Shown: positions 2,254 to 31,181 of the stretch, piece after piece
Layout: each line of letters begins with the position of its first letter
Position numbering within the stretch: the first letter of the stretch is position 1
Source of the DNA: a virus
Direction: 5' to 3' (one strand)
DNA: 38,391 bases
Virus record (IMG/VR): IMGVR_UViG_3300042331_000081
Location: 1 to 38,391 of that record
Translations under genes and position numbers: made by a program
The notes under the pieces: generated by a model
The model's database searches: none
What the model saw: only the letters and a program-made list of their open reading frames with translations
Told to the model about the DNA's origin: nothing

Positions 2254-5038
2254 GTACCGCGCCGAGGTTGCAGACCTTACCGCCGAAATTAATAAGATTA
2301 ACGAGGCGAATAGCGAAATAGAAAAGGGCGCTATTAAAACGGCTAAGGTTGTAGCTACGACCTTTCAAGGCGCTGCCAAAACTTCGGCGGCTGCGTTTAG
2401 CGGTGGCGAAATAAGCAACGCGTTAAAACAAAATGCAACGGCTATTGAACAAGTAACCAAAAAAGCCGAACCATTAACTCGAACCTTACGCGGTTTAAAA
2501 AATGAAATACTAGCCCTCGAAGAAGCGGGCGACGTAACTAGCGATAGGTTTAGAAATTTAGTAGCTGAAAGCGCGAGGCTCGAAGACCAAATAGGTGATA
2601 CCCGCGCACGTATTAGTAACCTCGCGAGCGATACATTAAAATTCGATGCAGGCTTACAAGCGGTACAAGGTTTAGCCGCTGGGTTCGAGGTTGTGCAAGG
2701 TACGGCGGCGTTGTTTGGAGCTGAAAATGAAGACCTACAAAAGAGCTTGTTAAAGGTTCAGGGCGCTATGGCGGTCGCTAACGGTTTGCAGCAAATAAGT
2801 AATTTATTACTTGAAGAAAGCAAGCTAAAGACCGTAGCGTTAACAATAGCACAAAGGGTTTACGCTGGGGCGGTTGCCTTAACTAGCGGCGCGTTAAAAG
2901 GCTTAAAGGTAGCCCTAGCCGCTACGGGTGTAGGCGCGTTATTGGTAGCGCTCGGGGCGGTCGTTGCTTACTGGGACGATATTAAAGGCTTAATAACGGG
3001 CGTAAGCGCTGAACAGGAAAAGCTAAACGAAACAACTAAAAATAACTTACAACGCCTAGATGACGAACTAAAGCTATTAGAGTTACAGGAAAACGCGTTA
3101 AAGCTACAAGGTAAAACCGAAGAGGATATAATTAAGTTAAAGCAACTTAAAATACAGCAGTCGATACAGCAAACTAAAATTGATATTGAAAACGCTAAGA
3201 CTGTACGAAAGCAGCAAGTCGAAAACTCTAAATTAGCATTTGAAGTATTGCAGGGTATAGGTAGAGTAGGTATTGAATTAATAACAATAGCGTTTAGGGT
3301 TTCGGCTGCGGGTATTGATGCCGCAATTTTAATATATGACCAGTTCGCAGAAAAGCTAGGTTTGGAGAAAATAGGAACGACGTTAAACGAGCAAATAAGT
3401 AAGTTAAACGAGGGCGTTACAACCTTTGCCGCTAACTTTGTTTTTGACCCCGAAGCAACGGCTAAAGAGGGCGACAAAGCCGTAGCCGAAGCCGAACTAC
3501 GGTTAGCCGAATTAGAGTCAACAAACGACGGTTATACCTTAAAGCTAAAAGAAATTGAAAAGGAGCGTACCGATAACGCTAACGCGGCAAATAAAGAGCG
3601 TGCCGACAAAGCATCGGACGCGGCGAAGAAAGCCGAAGAAGACGCGAAGAAAGCCCGCGAGCGTTTAGCGCAAATCGAAAACGAGGCTTTCGTTACCCAG
3701 CTAACCGAACAACAAAAGGTACGTGCCGAAACAAATGAAAAGATTTTAGACCTTGAGAAAACATTTACCGAGGCGCGTTTTAAGGCGGGAACGGTTGAAG
3801 CATTGCGAGCTGAAAAAGAAAAGAACGACGCCATAGACCAACTAATATCCGATAGAGATAAACGCATTAAGGAGCTTGAGAAAAAAGATTTAGAAGCCAG
3901 CGTAGCTAAACAAATCGAAGCTACTAAAGCGGCGGCTAACGCTACAACCGAAGAACAAATATTAGCCCTACAAACCCAGCGCGATATTGAACTAGCAAAC
4001 GCCGAAGCGCTCGGTAAAGACAAAGTAGAAATAACAACGCGCTATAACACGCAAATAGCTGATTTAAATAAACAGTTAGCGCAAAGCGAGTATAACACCC
4101 GCGTAGATAATTTAAAGGCTTTAGAGCTTATAGAGGGCAGCACATTAGACCGCCGTTTGGAGCTTATTAATATCGAAGCGGCGCGGCGTAAAAAAGAGGC
4201 TACCGATACCATTAAAGACAAAGAGGAACTAGACGCTAAGCTAAAGTTAATAGATGCCGAAACGCAAAACGTGATACGTGAGGAAAGAAAGAAAACACGC
4301 GACGAACAAATAGCACAAGTAGAAGAAGTAGCTCAAGCTACCGCAGGGGCGTTTAGTGCTTACGTAAACCTAGTTAACCAAATAAGCGAGCAACGTATAA
4401 ACGCAATTAATCAAAGCTCTGAATTAGAACTAAAGGCTATTAACGATAGCCAAAACAGCGAGATAACTAAAGAACGCCAGCGTGAAACGTTAAAGCTAAA
4501 AACCGAAAGGGCGATAGCAAAAGAGAAAACTAAACAAGCTATGTTAGACAAGCAATTAGCTTTGTTTAACGCGATTATAAGCACGGCGGCGGCTATTGCT
4601 AAAGTATCTAATAACCCTGTTTTAGTAGCCCTTGCAGCCGCTACGGGGGCGTTACAAATTGCTACTATTGCCTCGCAGCCTATACCTAAATACGCACGAG
4701 GCGGTTTAATCGGTGGGCGCTTGCATAGCGGGGGCGGTACGTTAATCGAAGCTGAACGCGACGAGTATATTATTAACCGAGGTCAAAGCATGAAGCACCG
4801 CCGCGAGCTGGACGCTATCAATACAAGTAGCGAGGCGTTTAGGCGGCTTATAGACGAACGTTATGTACGCCCAGCTATTAATTATTACCTTAGTAAAAAA
4901 GAACGCGGCTTAACGCTTAATGCTTCGTTAAATTCTAAAAGTATGGAGCGCGAACTAAAGGGTATGCGTAAAGATTTAAAGCGCCAAAACACCGTTATAA
5001 ATATTAACGCTTCGGATAACCGTTACACATGGCAGTAA
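2234..5038 (+). CDS. Tail tape measure protein
   Basis: The protein has 934 residues, one of the two longest in the genome with the 852-residue fibre. The first 130 residues and the section from about 270 to 770 are strongly helical and coiled-coil-like, rich in Lys, Glu, Ala and Gln. Hydrophobic stretches lie near residues 205-250 (ATGVGALLVALGAVVAYW) and 775-815. The C-terminus has a Gly-rich ARGGLIGGRLHSGGGTLIEA motif followed by ERDEYIINRG, a signature seen at the end of many Bacteroidota tape measures. At about 0.15 nm per residue the tail would be near 140 nm, an inference from the lambda ruler model. The ATG at 2234 is preferred over 2207 because MAEIVIKY begins the regular helical pattern. 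Confidence 0.9.
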   Translation: MAEIVIKYRAEVADLTAEINKINEANSEIEKGAIKTAKVVATTFQGAAKTSAAAFSGGEISNALKQNATAIEQVTKKAEPLTRTLRGLKNEILALEEAGDVTSDRFRNLVAESARLEDQIGDTRARISNLASDTLKFDAGLQAVQGLAAGFEVVQGTAALFGAENEDLQKSLLKVQGAMAVANGLQQISNLLLEESKLKTVALTIAQRVYAGAVALTSGALKGLKVALAATGVGALLVALGAVVAYWDDIKGLITGVSAEQEKLNETTKNNLQRLDDELKLLELQENALKLQGKTEEDIIKLKQLKIQQSIQQTKIDIENAKTVRKQQVENSKLAFEVLQGIGRVGIELITIAFRVSAAGIDAAILIYDQFAEKLGLEKIGTTLNEQISKLNEGVTTFAANFVFDPEATAKEGDKAVAEAELRLAELESTNDGYTLKLKEIEKERTDNANAANKERADKASDAAKKAEEDAKKARERLAQIENEAFVTQLTEQQKVRAETNEKILDLEKTFTEARFKAGTVEALRAEKEKNDAIDQLISDRDKRIKELEKKDLEASVAKQIEATKAAANATTEEQILALQTQRDIELANAEALGKDKVEITTRYNTQIADLNKQLAQSEYNTRVDNLKALELIEGSTLDRRLELINIEAARRKKEATDTIKDKEELDAKLKLIDAETQNVIREERKKTRDEQIAQVEEVAQATAGAFSAYVNLVNQISEQRINAINQSSELELKAINDSQNSEITKERQRETLKLKTERAIAKEKTKQAMLDKQLALFNAIISTAAAIAKVSNNPVLVALAAATGALQIATIASQPIPKYARGGLIGGRLHSGGGTLIEAERDEYIINRGQSMKHRRELDAINTSSEAFRRLIDERYVRPAINYYLSKKERGLTLNASLNSKSMERELKGMRKDLKRQNTVININASDNRYTWQ

Positions 5039-8800: not shown

Positions 8801-9340
8801 ATGGGATGCGTAAGCTATTGCGACTCCGAGTTATTAGCTCATAACCTTGTTGACTGTAACGAATATAAATTAGGTGGCGTTTCTGCAATTATTGTAGGGG
8901 CTTGTAATACTACGCTCGCTGACCCTAGCGATGCGACGGAAGTACAAAACCTATTAACTGCGGGTACGGCACGTATAATTGAAGATATTCGTTTTGCTTT
9001 GCCAGCGGGTTCGCCTGTAACTGTGGATAGCCCTATTGGATGCGGTACACCTATCCGCATTAACGAAGACCGCACTGCTACATTATACGACGCGAATGTA
9101 ACCGACGAAAATAACCTATTTTGGAACGACGTAAATAACCGTCGTATCGGTTGGATTTTAGCCTATATGTGCGACAGCGGTAAAGTAATTTTTATCGACC
9201 CGCCCGTGGGTATTACTACTAGCGCTAACTTTATTTTGCCCGAGCAGAATAACGAACTTCAGCGCTACGAAGTAACCTTTTCATGGCGCGATAAAGATAT
9301 TCCAGCTCAATACAATGCACCAGCAGGAATATTCAGCTAA
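8801..9340 (+). CDS. Probable major tail (tube) protein
   Basis: The protein has 179 residues with its own promoter and a long leader, implying stronger expression than the neighbouring tail genes. It begins MGCVSYCDSELL, is beta-rich and ends with YEVTFSWRDKDIPAQYNAPA, a pattern I associate with Bacteroidota phage tail-tube-like proteins. A terminator-like hairpin follows 20 bases after its stop. Size, separate regulation and lack of enzymatic motifs favour a tube subunit, but the gene is on the far side of the tape measure from the usual tube position, so the call is an inference. Confidence 0.5.
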   Translation: MGCVSYCDSELLAHNLVDCNEYKLGGVSAIIVGACNTTLADPSDATEVQNLLTAGTARIIEDIRFALPAGSPVTVDSPIGCGTPIRINEDRTATLYDANVTDENNLFWNDVNNRRIGWILAYMCDSGKVIFIDPPVGITTSANFILPEQNNELQRYEVTFSWRDKDIPAQYNAPAGIFS

Positions 9341-10283
9341 CTCGTTAAACCAACAGAAGCCCGCCCCGATTAATTTCGGGGTGGTGCTTTTTGCGTTTGG
9401 TAAGCACCATTACTACGGCGCGGCGTATAACCTTGCTTATTCAATTAAGAGGTTTAGCCCGTCGGTTAATATTGCTTTGTTCGTTGACGATACGAGCAAG
9501 GCATACGGCTACGCTAACGGGTTAGCCGATTTAGTAGATAGCATAAACACCATTAAGCCCGAGCATTTACAAACGGGCGGTAAGCTAGACCCCGGCAAAC
9601 TAAAGGTAAACCTATACGAGTATTTACCTTTCGAGAATAACGTTTATTTAGACGTGGACGCCGTGGCGCTTAAAGATATTACCCCGATGCTTAACGAGCT
9701 TATAGGGGCTAAAAAAGATTACATAAGCCATACAGTAGGCTATCACAATATAAAGCAAGGGCGGGCAATACCGTCTATGCAATGGGCTTGGGCTGACGAT
9801 ATTTGGCAGCATTTCGAATTGAAAGAAACCGACACGTTACCAGCCATAAACAGCTCTATTCAATTTATTCGTAAGGGTGAAACAGCCGAACGTTTATACG
9901 CAACGGCTAAATACTTTTACGAAAACGAACCGCTACCCGTAAATAAGCTACGTATGAAGTGGGGCGGCGGGCAACCCGACGAACTTTACATGAACGTTGC
10001 GTTAGCTAAATTAGGTTTAGACCCTGCCATAATTGCAGCGGGTCAAACCGATGGGGCTGAAAACGGTTACATACACTTTGCCGTCTCGCGCCGTTTATCG
10101 TTTGCCGAAGTAACCGAGCGTTTTTATTTGCAAAGCTATTACGGTGGGCAGGGCTTTACGCCGTTGTTTTATATCGACTGGCTAGACCGATTATTAAAGC
10201 AATGGCATCGCGAAGAAAACAAAATGCACGCTCATTTCATAAATCGAATAACCTCTAACAAATATGCCGGAAACAAAAAATAA
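9315..10283 (+). CDS. Glycosyltransferase (GT8-like, DxD motif)
   Basis: The protein has 322 residues and begins 26 bases before the end of the tail-tube candidate. The first strand reads INFGVVLFAFGKHHYYGAAY near residues 19-38, and the nucleotide-sugar/metal motif reads VYLDVDAVALKDI near residues 110-122 (D-V-D). Further conserved-looking parts are the WAWADDIW segment and GGGQPDELYMNVAL. This is the order in GT-A fold enzymes of the GT8 type. It would transfer a sugar from a nucleotide donor; the acceptor is unknown. Its place inside the virion genes suggests modification of a virion protein or of the host surface late in infection. Confidence 0.8.
   Translation: MHQQEYSANSLNQQKPAPINFGVVLFAFGKHHYYGAAYNLAYSIKRFSPSVNIALFVDDTSKAYGYANGLADLVDSINTIKPEHLQTGGKLDPGKLKVNLYEYLPFENNVYLDVDAVALKDITPMLNELIGAKKDYISHTVGYHNIKQGRAIPSMQWAWADDIWQHFELKETDTLPAINSSIQFIRKGETAERLYATAKYFYENEPLPVNKLRMKWGGGQPDELYMNVALAKLGLDPAIIAAGQTDGAENGYIHFAVSRRLSFAEVTERFYLQSYYGGQGFTPLFYIDWLDRLLKQWHREENKMHAHFINRITSNKYAGNKK
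9361..9392 (+). terminator. Terminator-like hairpin within the 5' part of the glycosyltransferase gene
   Basis: CCGCCCCGA (9361-9369) and TCGGGGTGG (9376-9384) form a nine-pair stem with one G-U around the loop TTAATT. Five T residues follow at 9388-9392. It lies just after the tail-tube stop but inside the glycosyltransferase reading frame, so it probably attenuates read-through from the strongly transcribed upstream gene. Confidence 0.6.
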
Positions 10284-10914
10284 AAAGGCGGCAAAGCCAA
10301 AAGCCGAAACCCCTAAAGCGACTAAACCGAAAAAAGAAAAGGTAGTAAAAACAGAGTACGTTTACGCGCTCGAACCGCTACCCGAAAAGGAGCTAAAAAC
10401 AACGGCTACCTTTAACGAGCAACCGCGCCACGGCTGGAATAGTGAGCCTGACGTTTGCGAGTTTATCGGGTCATTGGTTAAAATGCTAGGCGCTAAAGCT
10501 GTTTTAGAGGTGGGCGTTTTCGAGGGTGAAACCTCGATTAAAATTATAGAGGCATTACCTAACGGCGGTTACTACGCAGGGATTGATATAAACGACCATA
10601 GGAAGCATGAATTAAAGCGCGACGGTATAGCAGTCGATTTTATTTTAAACGAGAGCCAAAACGCTTTAAAACAATTTCCCGCTAAACACTTCGATTTTAT
10701 TTTTGTAGACGGCGACCATAGCTGGGAGAATGTTTTACCCGAGTTTAAAGAAATTGAAAGGGTAATAACTGACGGCGGCATAATTGCCTATCATGATACG
10801 CTACACATACCCGACGTTAAACGTTTAATTGAATACGCTCAACACTATAAATATAACGCCGTTACTTTAAACACTTCGGAGGGGCGCGGCTTAACACTAC
10901 TTCAAAGATTATGA
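10264..10914 (+). CDS. Class I SAM-dependent methyltransferase (Methyltransf_24-like)
   Basis: The protein has 216 residues. After a 35-residue Lys/Pro/Ala-rich tail there is a Rossmann-type methyltransferase: motif I VLEVGVFEGETS near residues 80-91, a second strand YYAGIDIND, the acidic DFIFVDGDHSW near residues 143-153, and GGIIAYHDT. These are typical of the Methyltransf_24 group. It overlaps the glycosyltransferase by 20 bases, so the pair is co-translated, and methylation of a sugar or of the same acceptor is an attractive inference. The disordered basic N-terminus is unusual and may tether the enzyme to DNA, RNA or a virion partner. Confidence 0.82.
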   Translation: MPETKNKKAAKPKAETPKATKPKKEKVVKTEYVYALEPLPEKELKTTATFNEQPRHGWNSEPDVCEFIGSLVKMLGAKAVLEVGVFEGETSIKIIEALPNGGYYAGIDINDHRKHELKRDGIAVDFILNESQNALKQFPAKHFDFIFVDGDHSWENVLPEFKEIERVITDGGIIAYHDTLHIPDVKRLIEYAQHYKYNAVTLNTSEGRGLTLLQRL

Positions 10915-22216: not shown

Positions 22217-22675
22217 ATGCGCTCTACATCGGCTCAGGGTTTAGCAATTATTAAGAAACATGAGGGTTTACGCCTTGCTGCGTATCTTTGCCCTGCGGGT
22301 GTACCAACGATAGGCTACGGCTCGACGCGTTACCCTAACGGCAAAAAAATAATATTAGGCGAAAAGCTATCGAACGAAAGCGAGGCTACATCGTTGCTTT
22401 TAGCTACGTTAGAACCTTTTGAAGCCGCAATAAATAAACACCTACCGAACCTTAACCAATGCCAATTTGACGCGCTTGTATCATTTATGTATAACGTAGG
22501 TACGGGCGCGTTTATTAAAAGCACCTTGCTAAAAAAGGCAAAGGCAAACCCAGCTGACCCGAGCATATTAGACGAGTTTCAAAAATGGGTACGCGGTGGC
22601 GGTAAGGTATTACCCGGCTTGGTTACGCGGCGTAAAGAGGAAGCAAAGTTATATTTTTCACTTTGTAACATTTAG
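22217..22675 (+). CDS. Endolysin, GH24 lysozyme (T4-type muramidase)
   Basis: The protein has 152 residues and is a complete GH24 domain without a cell-wall-binding module or signal peptide. The catalytic region reads KHEGLRLAAY (Glu16), followed by GVPTIGYGS with the usual G-Y-G. FDALVSFMYNVGTGAF and the C-terminal FQKWVRGGGKVLPGLVTRRK match the family closely. It hydrolyses the glycan of peptidoglycan in the periplasm, so it needs the holin to get across the inner membrane. It starts two bases after the preceding stop and heads the lysis region. Confidence 0.93.
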   Translation: MRSTSAQGLAIIKKHEGLRLAAYLCPAGVPTIGYGSTRYPNGKKIILGEKLSNESEATSLLLATLEPFEAAINKHLPNLNQCQFDALVSFMYNVGTGAFIKSTLLKKAKANPADPSILDEFQKWVRGGGKVLPGLVTRRKEEAKLYFSLCNI

Positions 22676-22722: not shown

Positions 22723-22929
22723 ATGAAGCGTAAACCTACTAAAGTACGAAAGGCGGTCGATATAGTTCTAAAATACTGGCGCGGCACGGTAGGCTCGTTA
22801 GTAGTTTTAGTATCTATATTCCTTTTGATTTTTAAAAAAATAGAAGCCGAAACGTTAGCGGCTATAATCGCGGCGTTAATCGCGGCGGGCTACATACCTA
22901 AAGCTAAAGACGATGGAAATAGCGATTAA
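22723..22929 (+). CDS. Putative holin
   Basis: The protein has 68 residues. After a basic N-terminus (MKRKPTKVRK) comes a membrane segment near residues 23-38 (TVGSLVVLVSIFLLIF) and a second hydrophobic, Ala-rich helix near 43-57 (TLAAIIAALIAAGYI). The tail is charged. Size, topology and position directly after the endolysin fit a small holin that opens the inner membrane. No family-specific motif is visible. Confidence 0.7.
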   Translation: MKRKPTKVRKAVDIVLKYWRGTVGSLVVLVSIFLLIFKKIEAETLAAIIAALIAAGYIPKAKDDGNSD

Positions 22930-23356
22930 AGATACTACGATATGCTTCGCGCCCGGTCATTGCCCTAATCACCCGAATAAGGTTATTAAAACCGCGCCTA
23001 AAACTTTACCTCAAATTATAATAGCGCATGATACAGTAGCGGCTCAACTTGACACGGCTATAATAGCGCAAGTAACCGATACATTACACGTAGAAGCCCC
23101 GCAGCCCGTTAAAATTAAAATGCCTGTTTTTGATACTTTAAAGCCCGTTAGCGTATCTTTGTTAAACCAATCAACGTACACACCCGTTATAACTCAAAGC
23201 GTAAGAAAAGCGCCCGAAATTGAAAAGCCTATGAATATTGATTTACTATGCAATAGCGTTGTTTTTGGCTTTGCCCTTTATTTAACGGCTAATTACGTTT
23301 CAACCTGCGGCGCTGCGTGGCGTGGTATGTTTAAAGAGCTTCGTAATTTGGTTTAA
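22913..23356 (+). CDS. Membrane protein of the lysis region
   Basis: The protein has 147 residues and starts 17 bases before the holin stop. Most of it is Pro/Thr/Val-rich and extended (EAPQPVKIKMPVFDTLKPVS), followed by a single membrane segment near residues 113-130 (NSVVFGFALYLTANYVST) and a short basic tail. An accessory lysis protein such as a spanin-like component is possible. I see no lipobox, so this is a guess from location. Function unknown. Confidence 0.6.
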   Translation: MEIAIKDTTICFAPGHCPNHPNKVIKTAPKTLPQIIIAHDTVAAQLDTAIIAQVTDTLHVEAPQPVKIKMPVFDTLKPVSVSLLNQSTYTPVITQSVRKAPEIEKPMNIDLLCNSVVFGFALYLTANYVSTCGAAWRGMFKELRNLV

Positions 23357-23375: not shown

Positions 23376-23383
23376 TATATTTG
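23376..23383 (+). promoter_or_regulatory. Promoter -7 box before the PAS-DHp gene
   Basis: TATATTTG lies seven bases before the ATG at 23391, so the mRNA would be leaderless or nearly so. The nearest TTTG (23347-23350) is 25 bases upstream, longer than usual. Confidence 0.55.
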
Positions 23384-23390
23384 TGGGGTA

Positions 23391-23957
23391 ATGTCTACTG
23401 TTTATATTTTAGAAAATTCGTTAGACCTCTTTTACGTCGTTACCGATAGCGACGGCGGCATTATATCGAGCAACGAATTATTTAAGGCTTATAGCAGCCA
23501 TATTAAGCCGAAAAACATTATAGATATAGTAAGTAACGAGGGTGACCGCGAAACGCTCATAAACGCCGTTAAAAAGGCAAAAGAGCGCACGCCCGAACCT
23601 ATGCGGGTATATGCTGCGACGAAGCAGAAAAATAATAGCGAGCGGTTTAACGTTTGGAATATTTATTCTATAATGGGCGCTATTCATTTTATCGGGTTTC
23701 AGCTTATTGACGTAACCAGCATAACGGCTCACGAATACGAGCGGCAAAGGGTATTGTTAGAAGAATTTAGATTTATGCTATCGCACGAATTACGCCAGCC
23801 GCTAACGTCGGTTAGTGGTTTGGTTCGGCTGTTAAATAACAATACTACACCGAGCGACACCGAAAAAAGCGATTTGTTGAAAATGCTAAATGAAAGTGTG
23901 CTAAATTTGGACGAAGCTGTTAAGGCTTTAGTTAAAAAAGCAACGCGGCAATTATGA
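23391..23957 (+). CDS. PAS domain plus histidine-kinase DHp domain, no ATPase domain
   Basis: The protein has 188 residues. Residues 1-115 look like a PAS sensor domain (LFYVVTDSDGGIISSNELF, then GFQLIDVTSITAHE). Residues 116-180 match the histidine kinase dimerisation and phosphoacceptor helices, including the H-box FMLSHELRQPLTSVSGL with the phosphoacceptor at His132. The gene stops where an HATPase domain would begin, so it cannot phosphorylate itself. It could be phosphorylated by, form mixed dimers with, or titrate a host two-component system. The ATG at 23391 is set by the promoter; longer in-frame starts lie before it. It overlaps the next small gene (ATGA). Confidence 0.8.
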   Translation: MSTVYILENSLDLFYVVTDSDGGIISSNELFKAYSSHIKPKNIIDIVSNEGDRETLINAVKKAKERTPEPMRVYAATKQKNNSERFNVWNIYSIMGAIHFIGFQLIDVTSITAHEYERQRVLLEEFRFMLSHELRQPLTSVSGLVRLLNNNTTPSDTEKSDLLKMLNESVLNLDEAVKALVKKATRQL

Positions 23958-24112
23958 GCGACGAACAAATAGACAAGCGCCTAATTAAAGTTATTAGGAT
24001 ATACCTAAACGAGCGCGATATGCCGCCAAAGGTAGCCCGTGAGCTAGTTTATTTAAACGCCAAATGCCGCGACCGTATAACCGAGTACCTAACCGTTTTA
24101 AAAATTGCTTAA
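23954..24112 (+). CDS. Small helical protein coupled to the PAS-DHp gene
   Basis: The protein has 52 residues. Its ATG overlaps the PAS-DHp stop and its end overlaps the next gene by eight bases. It is strongly helical and basic (MSDEQIDKRLIKVIRIYLNE, then REL, then NAKCRDRITEYLTVLK). Close coupling suggests joint function with the upstream protein. No family is recognised. Confidence 0.6.
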   Translation: MSDEQIDKRLIKVIRIYLNERDMPPKVARELVYLNAKCRDRITEYLTVLKIA

Positions 24113-24797
24113 CGTACCGCCTAAATACCAATTCGACGTTAAACACGTAGGGCTTATAGTGGTTATTATGCTTTTGTTACTTACGTTAATTGATAAATGC
24201 CGCGATAATAACGAACTTACTAAAAATTTGGGCGTAGAAATAGGCGTTAATCGCGATTTAAGGCTAAAAACGTTAGCCGATAGCGCTAAAATATATTCGC
24301 AAGCGGCTAAAATTGTAAGCTCCGATGCGTTAGCCCGTGAGTTAGAGCGTCAATTACACGAACTTTCGATTAAAGAGCCTGAAACGGTTACGAAAATCGA
24401 AACAAAAACCGTTTATAAGACCGAAATACAGTTAGCCGAACCCGTTTATATTGATAGTTTCCCTCATTTACGCCTACCTCAACCATTTTTTAAGCGCGAA
24501 AAATGGGTAACGTTCGGCGGTACGATAACAAATAAGGGAAGTTTACAGCTCGATAGCTTAATTTTACCCGCTACTTATACTTTTGCCGTGGGCGATACCA
24601 TGCGGGGCGGCTTATTTAACCGTTTATTGAGGCGTAAGGACACCGTTTTACGGCTTAAAATTGATAACCCTTACGTATTTGTTACGGGTATGGATAACTA
24701 CGTAATACGCCGCCGCTCGAAATGGTACGAAACACCGCTGTTTAACTTCGGCGCTGGGTTAGTTTGCGGTTTGGCGCTTCGCATTGTGCAAAAATAA
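24105..24797 (+). CDS. Membrane-anchored coiled-coil protein, spanin-like
   Basis: The protein has 230 residues starting at TTG 24105, which overlaps the preceding stop. An N-terminal membrane segment lies near residues 15-29 (VGLIVVIMLLLLTLI). It is followed by a polar helical region (RELERQLHELSIKEPETVTK), then a beta-rich globular domain (VTFGGTITNKGSLQLDS, later YVFVTGMDNYVI) and a short C-terminal hydrophobic segment (FGAGLVCGLALRI). This layout recalls membrane proteins common in Bacteroidota phages (DUF6808-like) near lysis genes. An inner-membrane, periplasm-facing spanin role is plausible but unproven. An ATG at 24168 would cut into the membrane segment. Confidence 0.6.
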   Translation: MLNVPPKYQFDVKHVGLIVVIMLLLLTLIDKCRDNNELTKNLGVEIGVNRDLRLKTLADSAKIYSQAAKIVSSDALARELERQLHELSIKEPETVTKIETKTVYKTEIQLAEPVYIDSFPHLRLPQPFFKREKWVTFGGTITNKGSLQLDSLILPATYTFAVGDTMRGGLFNRLLRRKDTVLRLKIDNPYVFVTGMDNYVIRRRSKWYETPLFNFGAGLVCGLALRIVQK

Positions 24798-25153: not shown

Positions 25154-25182
25154 GGGCGGCTAATAACCGCCCCTTTCTTTTT
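25154..25182 (+). terminator. Rho-independent terminator
   Basis: GGGCGG and CCGCCC form a perfect six-pair stem around CTAATAA and are followed by TTTCTTTTT. It separates the 24921 gene from the rest of the module, although no clear promoter lies between it and the next start, so partial read-through is likely. Confidence 0.85.
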
Positions 25183-30194: not shown

Positions 30195-31181
30195 ATGGTA
30201 AAACAGCAACAAGTAACCGAGAATTACGCTATTTATAATAGCGATTGTATGTATGTTATTTCTCAAATGCCCGAGAATAGCATAGACCTTTCTATATATT
30301 CGCCGCCGTTCGCTGGGCTTTATAATTATAGCTCACACGAAAACGACTTTAGTAACTGCGAAACGAAAGAGCAATTTTTGCAGCAATACGAATTTTTAAT
30401 AGAGCAACTTGCACGGGTAACTAAAAAAGGTAGGATAAACGCCGTACACGTTACCGACGTACATACAAATACGGGTAGGCTTTGGGATTTTCCCGGTGAA
30501 GTAATACGCCTACATGAAAAATACGGCTTCGAATATCATAACCGTATAACGGTATGGAAAGAGCCTTTAAAGGTTCGTATGCGTACAATGGTTCAGAGCT
30601 TAATGCACAAATTTATAGTAGAGGATGCTACCCGCTGTTTTACTGCGATGCCTGACTATGTTTTAATATTTAAAAAACGTGGCGAAATTGAAACACCCGT
30701 AACACACCCAAACGGCTTATGCGATTTTCCTTATTTTGGTGAAAACCCTTTTTTAGAAGCTCATAAAGAAACATACGGTAGTTATGGAGATTTTAGAAAA
30801 AAATGGATAAACTTCGACGGCGACCAGCGCGAAAATAAATTATCGCATTTAACATGGCAGCGATACGCATCGAGCGTTTGGGACGATGTACGGATAGATA
30901 ACGTATTACCTTTTAAAGATAGCCGCGAGGATGACGATGAAAAGCACGTACACCCGTTACAATTAGATGTTATAGACCGTTTAGTTTACCTTTATAGCAA
31001 CCCTAACGAAACTATATTAACGCCGTTTATGGGTGTAGGTAGTGAGGTTTATAGCCCTGTTTCGATGGGTAGAAAAGCGATAGGTATAGAGTTAAAAGAT
31101 AGTTATTATAAACAGGCTATATTGAATTTAAAAGAGGCTAAAAATAGGTTTAAAGATATTGAACAACCGAGTTTATTTTAG
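30195..31181 (+). CDS. DNA methyltransferase (orphan N4/N6-type)
   Basis: The protein has 328 residues in the order catalytic motif then SAM motif. The catalytic motif reads IYSPPFAGLYNY near residues 34-45 (SPPF variant of D/N/S-PP-Y/F), and the SAM pocket motif reads TPFMGVGSEVYSPVSMGRK near 276-294. SPPF is typical of N4-cytosine enzymes but is also seen in phage adenine methylases, so the base is not decided. No restriction endonuclease is adjacent, so its probable job is to protect phage DNA from host restriction. It is directly downstream of the helicase. Confidence 0.85.
   Translation: MVKQQQVTENYAIYNSDCMYVISQMPENSIDLSIYSPPFAGLYNYSSHENDFSNCETKEQFLQQYEFLIEQLARVTKKGRINAVHVTDVHTNTGRLWDFPGEVIRLHEKYGFEYHNRITVWKEPLKVRMRTMVQSLMHKFIVEDATRCFTAMPDYVLIFKKRGEIETPVTHPNGLCDFPYFGENPFLEAHKETYGSYGDFRKKWINFDGDQRENKLSHLTWQRYASSVWDDVRIDNVLPFKDSREDDDEKHVHPLQLDVIDRLVYLYSNPNETILTPFMGVGSEVYSPVSMGRKAIGIELKDSYYKQAILNLKEAKNRFKDIEQPSLF

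Follow-up and report, generated by a model that had tools for sequence, protein, structure and literature searches.

Gene content of the PAS-DHp locus

The window examined here is a stretch of 38,391 nucleotides of viral DNA, corresponding to positions 1 to 38,391 of the IMG/VR record IMGVR_UViG_3300042331_000081. An open reading frame at positions 23391-23957 encodes a protein of 188 residues, hereafter PAS-DHp, which lies in a block of genes that shows a fixed order in the phage group: endolysin, holin-like, X, PAS-DHp, S and Y. All of these genes are on the plus strand. The endolysin (22217-22675) was recognised by the Pfam family Phage_lysozyme (E-value 5.9e-39) and is followed by a gene for a small holin-like membrane protein of 68 residues (22723-22929). 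X (22913-23356; 147 residues) exhibits a hydrophobic segment at its C-terminus and is located directly upstream of PAS-DHp. Downstream, the conserved partner gene S (23954-24112) encodes 52 residues and overlaps the stop codon of PAS-DHp by 4 nt (ATGA), which agrees with the coupled 52-residue partner of the original prediction. Y (24105-24797; 230 residues) comprises a membrane anchor, a coiled coil, a beta domain and a C-terminal hydrophobic helix; its structural model is of low confidence and gives an outline only, and no Pfam family matched it above the cut-off. With its N-terminal anchor and long coiled coil, Y could be a spanin-like or other envelope-spanning protein. A terminator-like hairpin, a pattern match only, follows the next small ORF (25154-25172, plus strand).

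The same short gene was found next to the lysis genes of related phages, in a conserved place beside the endolysin and holin-like genes. The length of S ranges from 52 to 69 residues in the family, and its 4-nt overlap with PAS-DHp is present in 100 of the 112 loci in which S was called. PAS-DHp precedes Y in 68 of the 69 loci newly fetched through Y; the one apparent case of Y without PAS-DHp in this set is a locus cut by a contig end. This identifies PAS-DHp as a core gene and not as cargo. In the distant locus L215, an extra tail-like gene is inserted between X and PAS-DHp, with PAS-DHp still in the block. In another distant locus, L230 (776-4422), X and PAS-DHp are separated by a M15/VanY-type peptidase (1958-2440), which is likely an endolysin; the lysis enzyme of the module thus seems exchangeable. 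In L050 (5573-5968), a clade-A-like X adjoins a clade-B PAS-DHp, a sign of recombination within the block.

Structural model of PAS-DHp

In the window protein, Pfam detected HisKA (PF00512) at residues 129-178 (E-value 3.1e-8; 34 bits against a cut-off of 26.9), with a match that covers only profile positions 8-55 of 66, and nothing else convincing; no Pfam PAS model matched at E-values up to 1. The AlphaFold2 model, built on 40 family members (mean pLDDT 75.5), nevertheless predicts a PAS fold for residues 9-106 (23415-23708), where the pLDDT is mostly 80-90. After a poorly modelled hinge (residues 108-114), two long helices make up a predicted DHp hairpin. The first, consisting of the linker and helix alpha-1 (residues 113-150; 23727-23840), is also supported by the HisKA match and carries His132 (codon CAC, 23784-23786) within the H-box SHELRQPL. 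The second, helix alpha-2 (residues 156-187; 23856-23951), takes the chain to its end at residue 188, the point at which a sensor kinase would continue into its ATPase domain. The top PDB match over the full length of the model in Foldseek was YF1, a LOV-FixL sensor kinase (4gcz; E-value 7.7e-7), and the PAS part alone aligned to PAS domains with a Z of about 13 and an rmsd of about 2 over 94 residues (VIA-align). The fold is the defining feature of PAS domains, and by its modelled fold the N-terminal part belongs to them despite the missing Pfam match. PAS-DHp is a HisKA-domain protein with a PAS fold, not a complete sensor histidine kinase.

His132 is followed by an acidic residue at H+1, Glu133. 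The residue at H+4 is Gln136, and not Thr or Asn. A Thr or Asn at H+4 is the phosphatase residue, which is common in HisKA domains but not universal. The window protein contains no cysteine at all, and hence no flavin-binding cysteine, the mark of LOV domains; a LOV sensor was rejected on this ground.

Distribution and conservation

Two scans of IMG/VR yielded 320 and 394 related stretches. At the main-family loci read, PAS-DHp is always 188 residues long, apart from copies at contig ends and a frameshifted copy in L196 (about 4097-4680), which is split near residue 100 and reflects a sequencing error or a broken copy. The gene is single-copy, and the pairwise identity of its product falls to 55% in the nonredundant set. 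On this sequence evidence, the short form is neither a fragment or truncation artefact nor the result of a frameshift. His132, Glu133 and Gln136 are invariant at the main-family loci read, and position 134, which is Leu or Ile, is the only one to vary in the H-box core. L215 (190 residues, in a record of 54.7 kb) and L230 (189 residues) are distant members that score below the Pfam HisKA cut-off; both keep HEL(R/G)QPL, with changes at flanking positions such as S131 and T139. A loss of the histidine in homologues had been named as evidence against the original prediction, and His132 is present in every homologue read.

The median dN/dS of PAS-DHp is about 0.06 overall; taken separately, the PAS part reaches 0.04 and helix alpha-2 0.13, and residues 122-145 around the H-box are at 0. 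These values indicate strong purifying selection. In the main family, residues 122-145 form one invariant block, so conservation in this region does not single out catalysis.

No full-length relatives of PAS-DHp were found in 50,697 phage records (tblastn, INPHARED), where weak partial matches occurred in Listeria phage records. Y and the portal-like protein of the window had no relatives among sequenced phages. The entries retrieved by a structure search of a viral library were full-length or unnamed kinases and PAS proteins of viruses, and none of them was shown to be of the same family. Judging from the collected sequences, a large group of uncultured bacterial viruses carries PAS-DHp as a short, strictly conserved gene.

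Promoter and likely host

The sequence TATATTTG (23376-23383, plus strand), located 7 nt upstream of the start codon, corresponds to a Bacteroidota-type -7 promoter element. TAnnTTTG is the -7 element of Bacteroidota. In all 41 distinct upstream regions in which the gene does not overlap X, PAS-DHp starts 4-7 nt after the end of a TAnnTTTG box, whereas the expectation is about 0.9%. The flanking sequence varies from one subclade to another, an indication that the box as such is under selection. The box is present in two of the three clades; in the third, PAS-DHp overlaps X, and none of the 47 distinct upstream regions with this overlap has a box. The near-leaderless promoter assigned to the gene by the original prediction is thus confirmed and conserved in two clades, but it does not extend to the third. 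As judged from their upstream regions, PAS-DHp, S and Y can be expressed as a transcript independent of the lysis genes in the two clades, while the third probably relies on read-through. Further intergenic TAnnTTTG boxes precede start codons on the plus strand of the window at 2202, 8715, 15240, 16182, 17374, 21695, 24885 and 31962, which suggests that this phage is transcribed in many short units.

The helicase of the window is most similar to its counterparts in Flavobacterium phages (57% identical). Together with the promoter type, this makes a Bacteroidota host likely. A N4/N6 DNA methylase (30195-31181; PF01555, 2.8e-19) lies directly downstream of the helicase gene. The region 9315-10914, between the tail genes and the portal-like gene, contains an ORF that looks like a glycosyltransferase by eye, with no Pfam match, and a SAM-dependent methyltransferase (Methyltransf_24, 1.9e-16). 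Models of defence systems gave no match. Phage_integrase was absent from 27 records of the phage group, which fits a lytic life and led us to reject a prophage.

Kinase and receiver domains in the phage group

HATPase_c was absent from the PAS-DHp chain and, in six frames, from 22 phage-length records (the window and 21 related records). Six-frame searches likewise found no receiver domain (Response_reg) in the 22 phage-length records and no HATPase_c_2 in 27 records of the phage group. HisKA was recovered above the cut-off in 26 of the 27 records by the same six-frame search, and the searches for all four families were positive in control genomes. The partners of PAS-DHp must therefore be host-derived, as the dependence on host partners in the original prediction implied. 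An ATPase domain hidden by a frameshift, which had been named as grounds for refutation, appeared in no frame of the 22 records, and a hidden HATPase downstream of the gene or elsewhere in the phage was excluded by this search. A two-component system borne by the phage itself was also discarded, given the missing receiver partner. The PAS domain followed by an H-box around His132 without an ATPase domain is borne out by Pfam HisKA, AlphaFold2 and the six-frame searches, and the original observation holds and is stronger than first stated.

Possible modes of action

Autophosphorylation is impossible for a DHp domain that lacks an ATPase domain, and established facts leave a CA-less DHp three possible routes: phosphorylation in trans, binding or dephosphorylation of a response regulator, and dimerisation with a host kinase. 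The readings of PAS-DHp are ranked as follows: a trans-phosphorylated acceptor, then a decoy or phosphatase, a mixed dimer and a purely structural sensor. PAS-DHp probably connects to host signalling pathways during infection, and we give about an even chance to a role as a PAS-gated phosphoacceptor, with phosphate exchanged in trans between the protein and two-component proteins of the host. PAS-DHp would stand alone as a sensor-kinase module, probably homodimeric, without an ATP-binding domain and with a phosphoacceptor site that still works. His132 would be phosphorylated by the kinase domain of a host protein or by back-transfer from a host response regulator, which would dock on the alpha-1 face. 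The PAS domain would gate this exchange at His132, and PAS-DHp would rewire one host signalling pathway during infection. The dimerisation, the phosphorylation, the host partner, the gating and the benefit to the phage are all inferred.

The residues next to His132 are informative in this respect. In HisKA domains, the acidic residue beside the histidine is required for phosphorylation and kinase activity and not for phosphatase activity, whereas the Thr or Asn at H+4 is required for phosphatase activity only (PMC3510030). The retention of Glu133 points to phosphorylation of His132 rather than mere binding and, taken alone, the combination of Glu133 with a Gln at H+4 predicts an acceptor without phosphatase activity. 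However, the FixL part of 4gcz, an accepted HisKA kinase, also has a Gln at H+4 (HELNQPL), and under light YF1, which is built on FixL, behaves as a strong net phosphatase (PMC13322254). This weakens a kinase-plus, phosphatase-minus reading of Gln136.

YF1 thereby also lends support to a different role, in which the DHp dimer would keep one host response regulator unphosphorylated, by titration or dephosphorylation, and would never be phosphorylated itself. For response-regulator phosphatase activity, the DHp of EnvZ or NtrB alone is enough, and in vivo it causes a constitutive phosphatase phenotype (PMC3510030), so the earlier claim that such a protein cannot act alone was too strong. Nevertheless, Glu133 is invariant although phosphatase activity does not need it, and all members have a Gln instead of the Thr or Asn at H+4; in CrdS, the N375Q substitution left no measurable phosphatase activity and reduced kinase activity by about 40% (PMC3510030). 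We regard this role as doubtful, at roughly one chance in a few.

Pairing with a host PAS histidine kinase would make PAS-DHp a dominant modifier of that kinase, either because it serves the ATPase domain of the partner as a substrate or because it acts as a poison subunit. DHp is the dimerisation domain, PAS-DHp corresponds to the part of a kinase that would dimerise, and its YF1-like anatomy fits a half-kinase subunit. Such heterodimers usually require close sequence similarity at the DHp interface, however, and a scan of 84,980 species genomes with two peptide patterns revealed no close host homologue. The only bacterial candidate was L082 (31% identity over 60 residues), which was rejected as a homologue and is probably an ordinary kinase. 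We therefore find a mixed dimer unlikely.

Finally, PAS-DHp might not be phosphorylated at all: a PAS dimer sensing a ligand or redox state could act through S, X or Y on lysis or the envelope, with a structural H-box. The strict linkage with X, S and Y and the 4-nt overlap with S are consistent with this, as is a PAS part that is as constrained as the H-box helix. PAS-DHp is 59-69% identical between clades, and X, S and Y are 25-53% identical. PAS-DHp is thus more constrained than the genes packed with it, and the much faster evolution of X, S and Y argues against a tightly fitted complex. Moreover, HE.QPL survives in the distant members although the surrounding helix positions change. Of the four readings, this one appears the least probable to us. 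The endolysin and the holin-like protein are about as conserved between clades as PAS-DHp.

The preferred reading, phosphate exchange in trans, can be extended to lysis. In a clade of lytic phages, probably of Bacteroidota, a core PAS-gated phosphoacceptor might read or reset the host phosphorelay to decide the time of lysis; we consider this extension tentative and would not bet on it. The role in lysis timing put forward in the original prediction is suggested by gene position only, and proximity to lysis genes is also expected because one phage group shares its gene order. In addition, the separate promoter in two clades weakens the idea of a simply shared late lysis timing.

Comparison with known systems

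PAS-DHp has the PAS fold, the helical linker and the H-box DHp in common with PAS-containing HisKA sensor kinases (PhoR/PnpS models; T. maritima 3a0r; YF1/FixL 4gcz), and its match to the PhoR/PnpS model profiles spans both PAS and DHp. In contrast to these kinases, it has no HATPase_c and is 188 residues long. Spo0B and ChpT perform DHp-type phosphotransfer without a working kinase and keep a degenerate CA-like domain, whereas the PAS-DHp chain stops at the end of DHp; a phosphotransferase of the Spo0B/ChpT type was rejected because there is no CA-like domain after DHp. Engineered DHp fragments of EnvZ, NtrB and HK853 demonstrate that HisKA DHp domains do not need a CA domain to act on a response regulator (PMC3510030, PMC5727384). 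These laboratory fragments have Thr or Asn at H+4 (T264 in HK853, Asn in NtrB), while PAS-DHp, a natural viral gene with a PAS domain, has an invariant Gln.

Only a few phage proteins with an effect on two-component signalling are known. Among phage sensors, VqmA-Phage is a PAS receptor. In vibriophage VP882, it senses a host-made signal and drives lysis (PMC7790227), as a DNA-binding transcription factor and not as a phosphoacceptor. The orphan AgrC of phage phiCDHM1 is likewise a two-component sensor without its response regulator (PMC7790227); unlike PAS-DHp, it travels with AgrB and AgrD as a quorum-sensing set. Several histidine kinases of the host are bound at their kinase domains by PIT4 of Pseudomonas phage LSL4, which is described as a kinase-domain interactor and not as a DHp protein (PMC10714779); it indicates that phages target the histidine-kinase layer of the host.

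The open-access literature contained nothing relevant on a phage PAS-DHp or truncated kinase, and we found no description there of phages that keep a natural CA-less PAS-DHp as a core gene. The HisKA and PAS parts are already known, and the new element is this natural CA-less module as a core gene, which a large phage group keeps under its own promoter in two clades. Should host proteins phosphorylate PAS-DHp, a viral component would be running on a host phosphorelay, and a natural minimal PAS-DHp would be available for signalling studies.

For phage-borne PhoR genes, an action on the PhoB of the host has been proposed (PMC10987575). The best NCBIfam scores of PAS-DHp, 31 and 30 bits, fell short of the respective cut-offs (334 and 400), and a PhoR equivalog was rejected (31.3 bits against 334.2). 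Profile-based annotation may label such genes as PhoR or histidine kinase, although their products are incapable of autophosphorylation.
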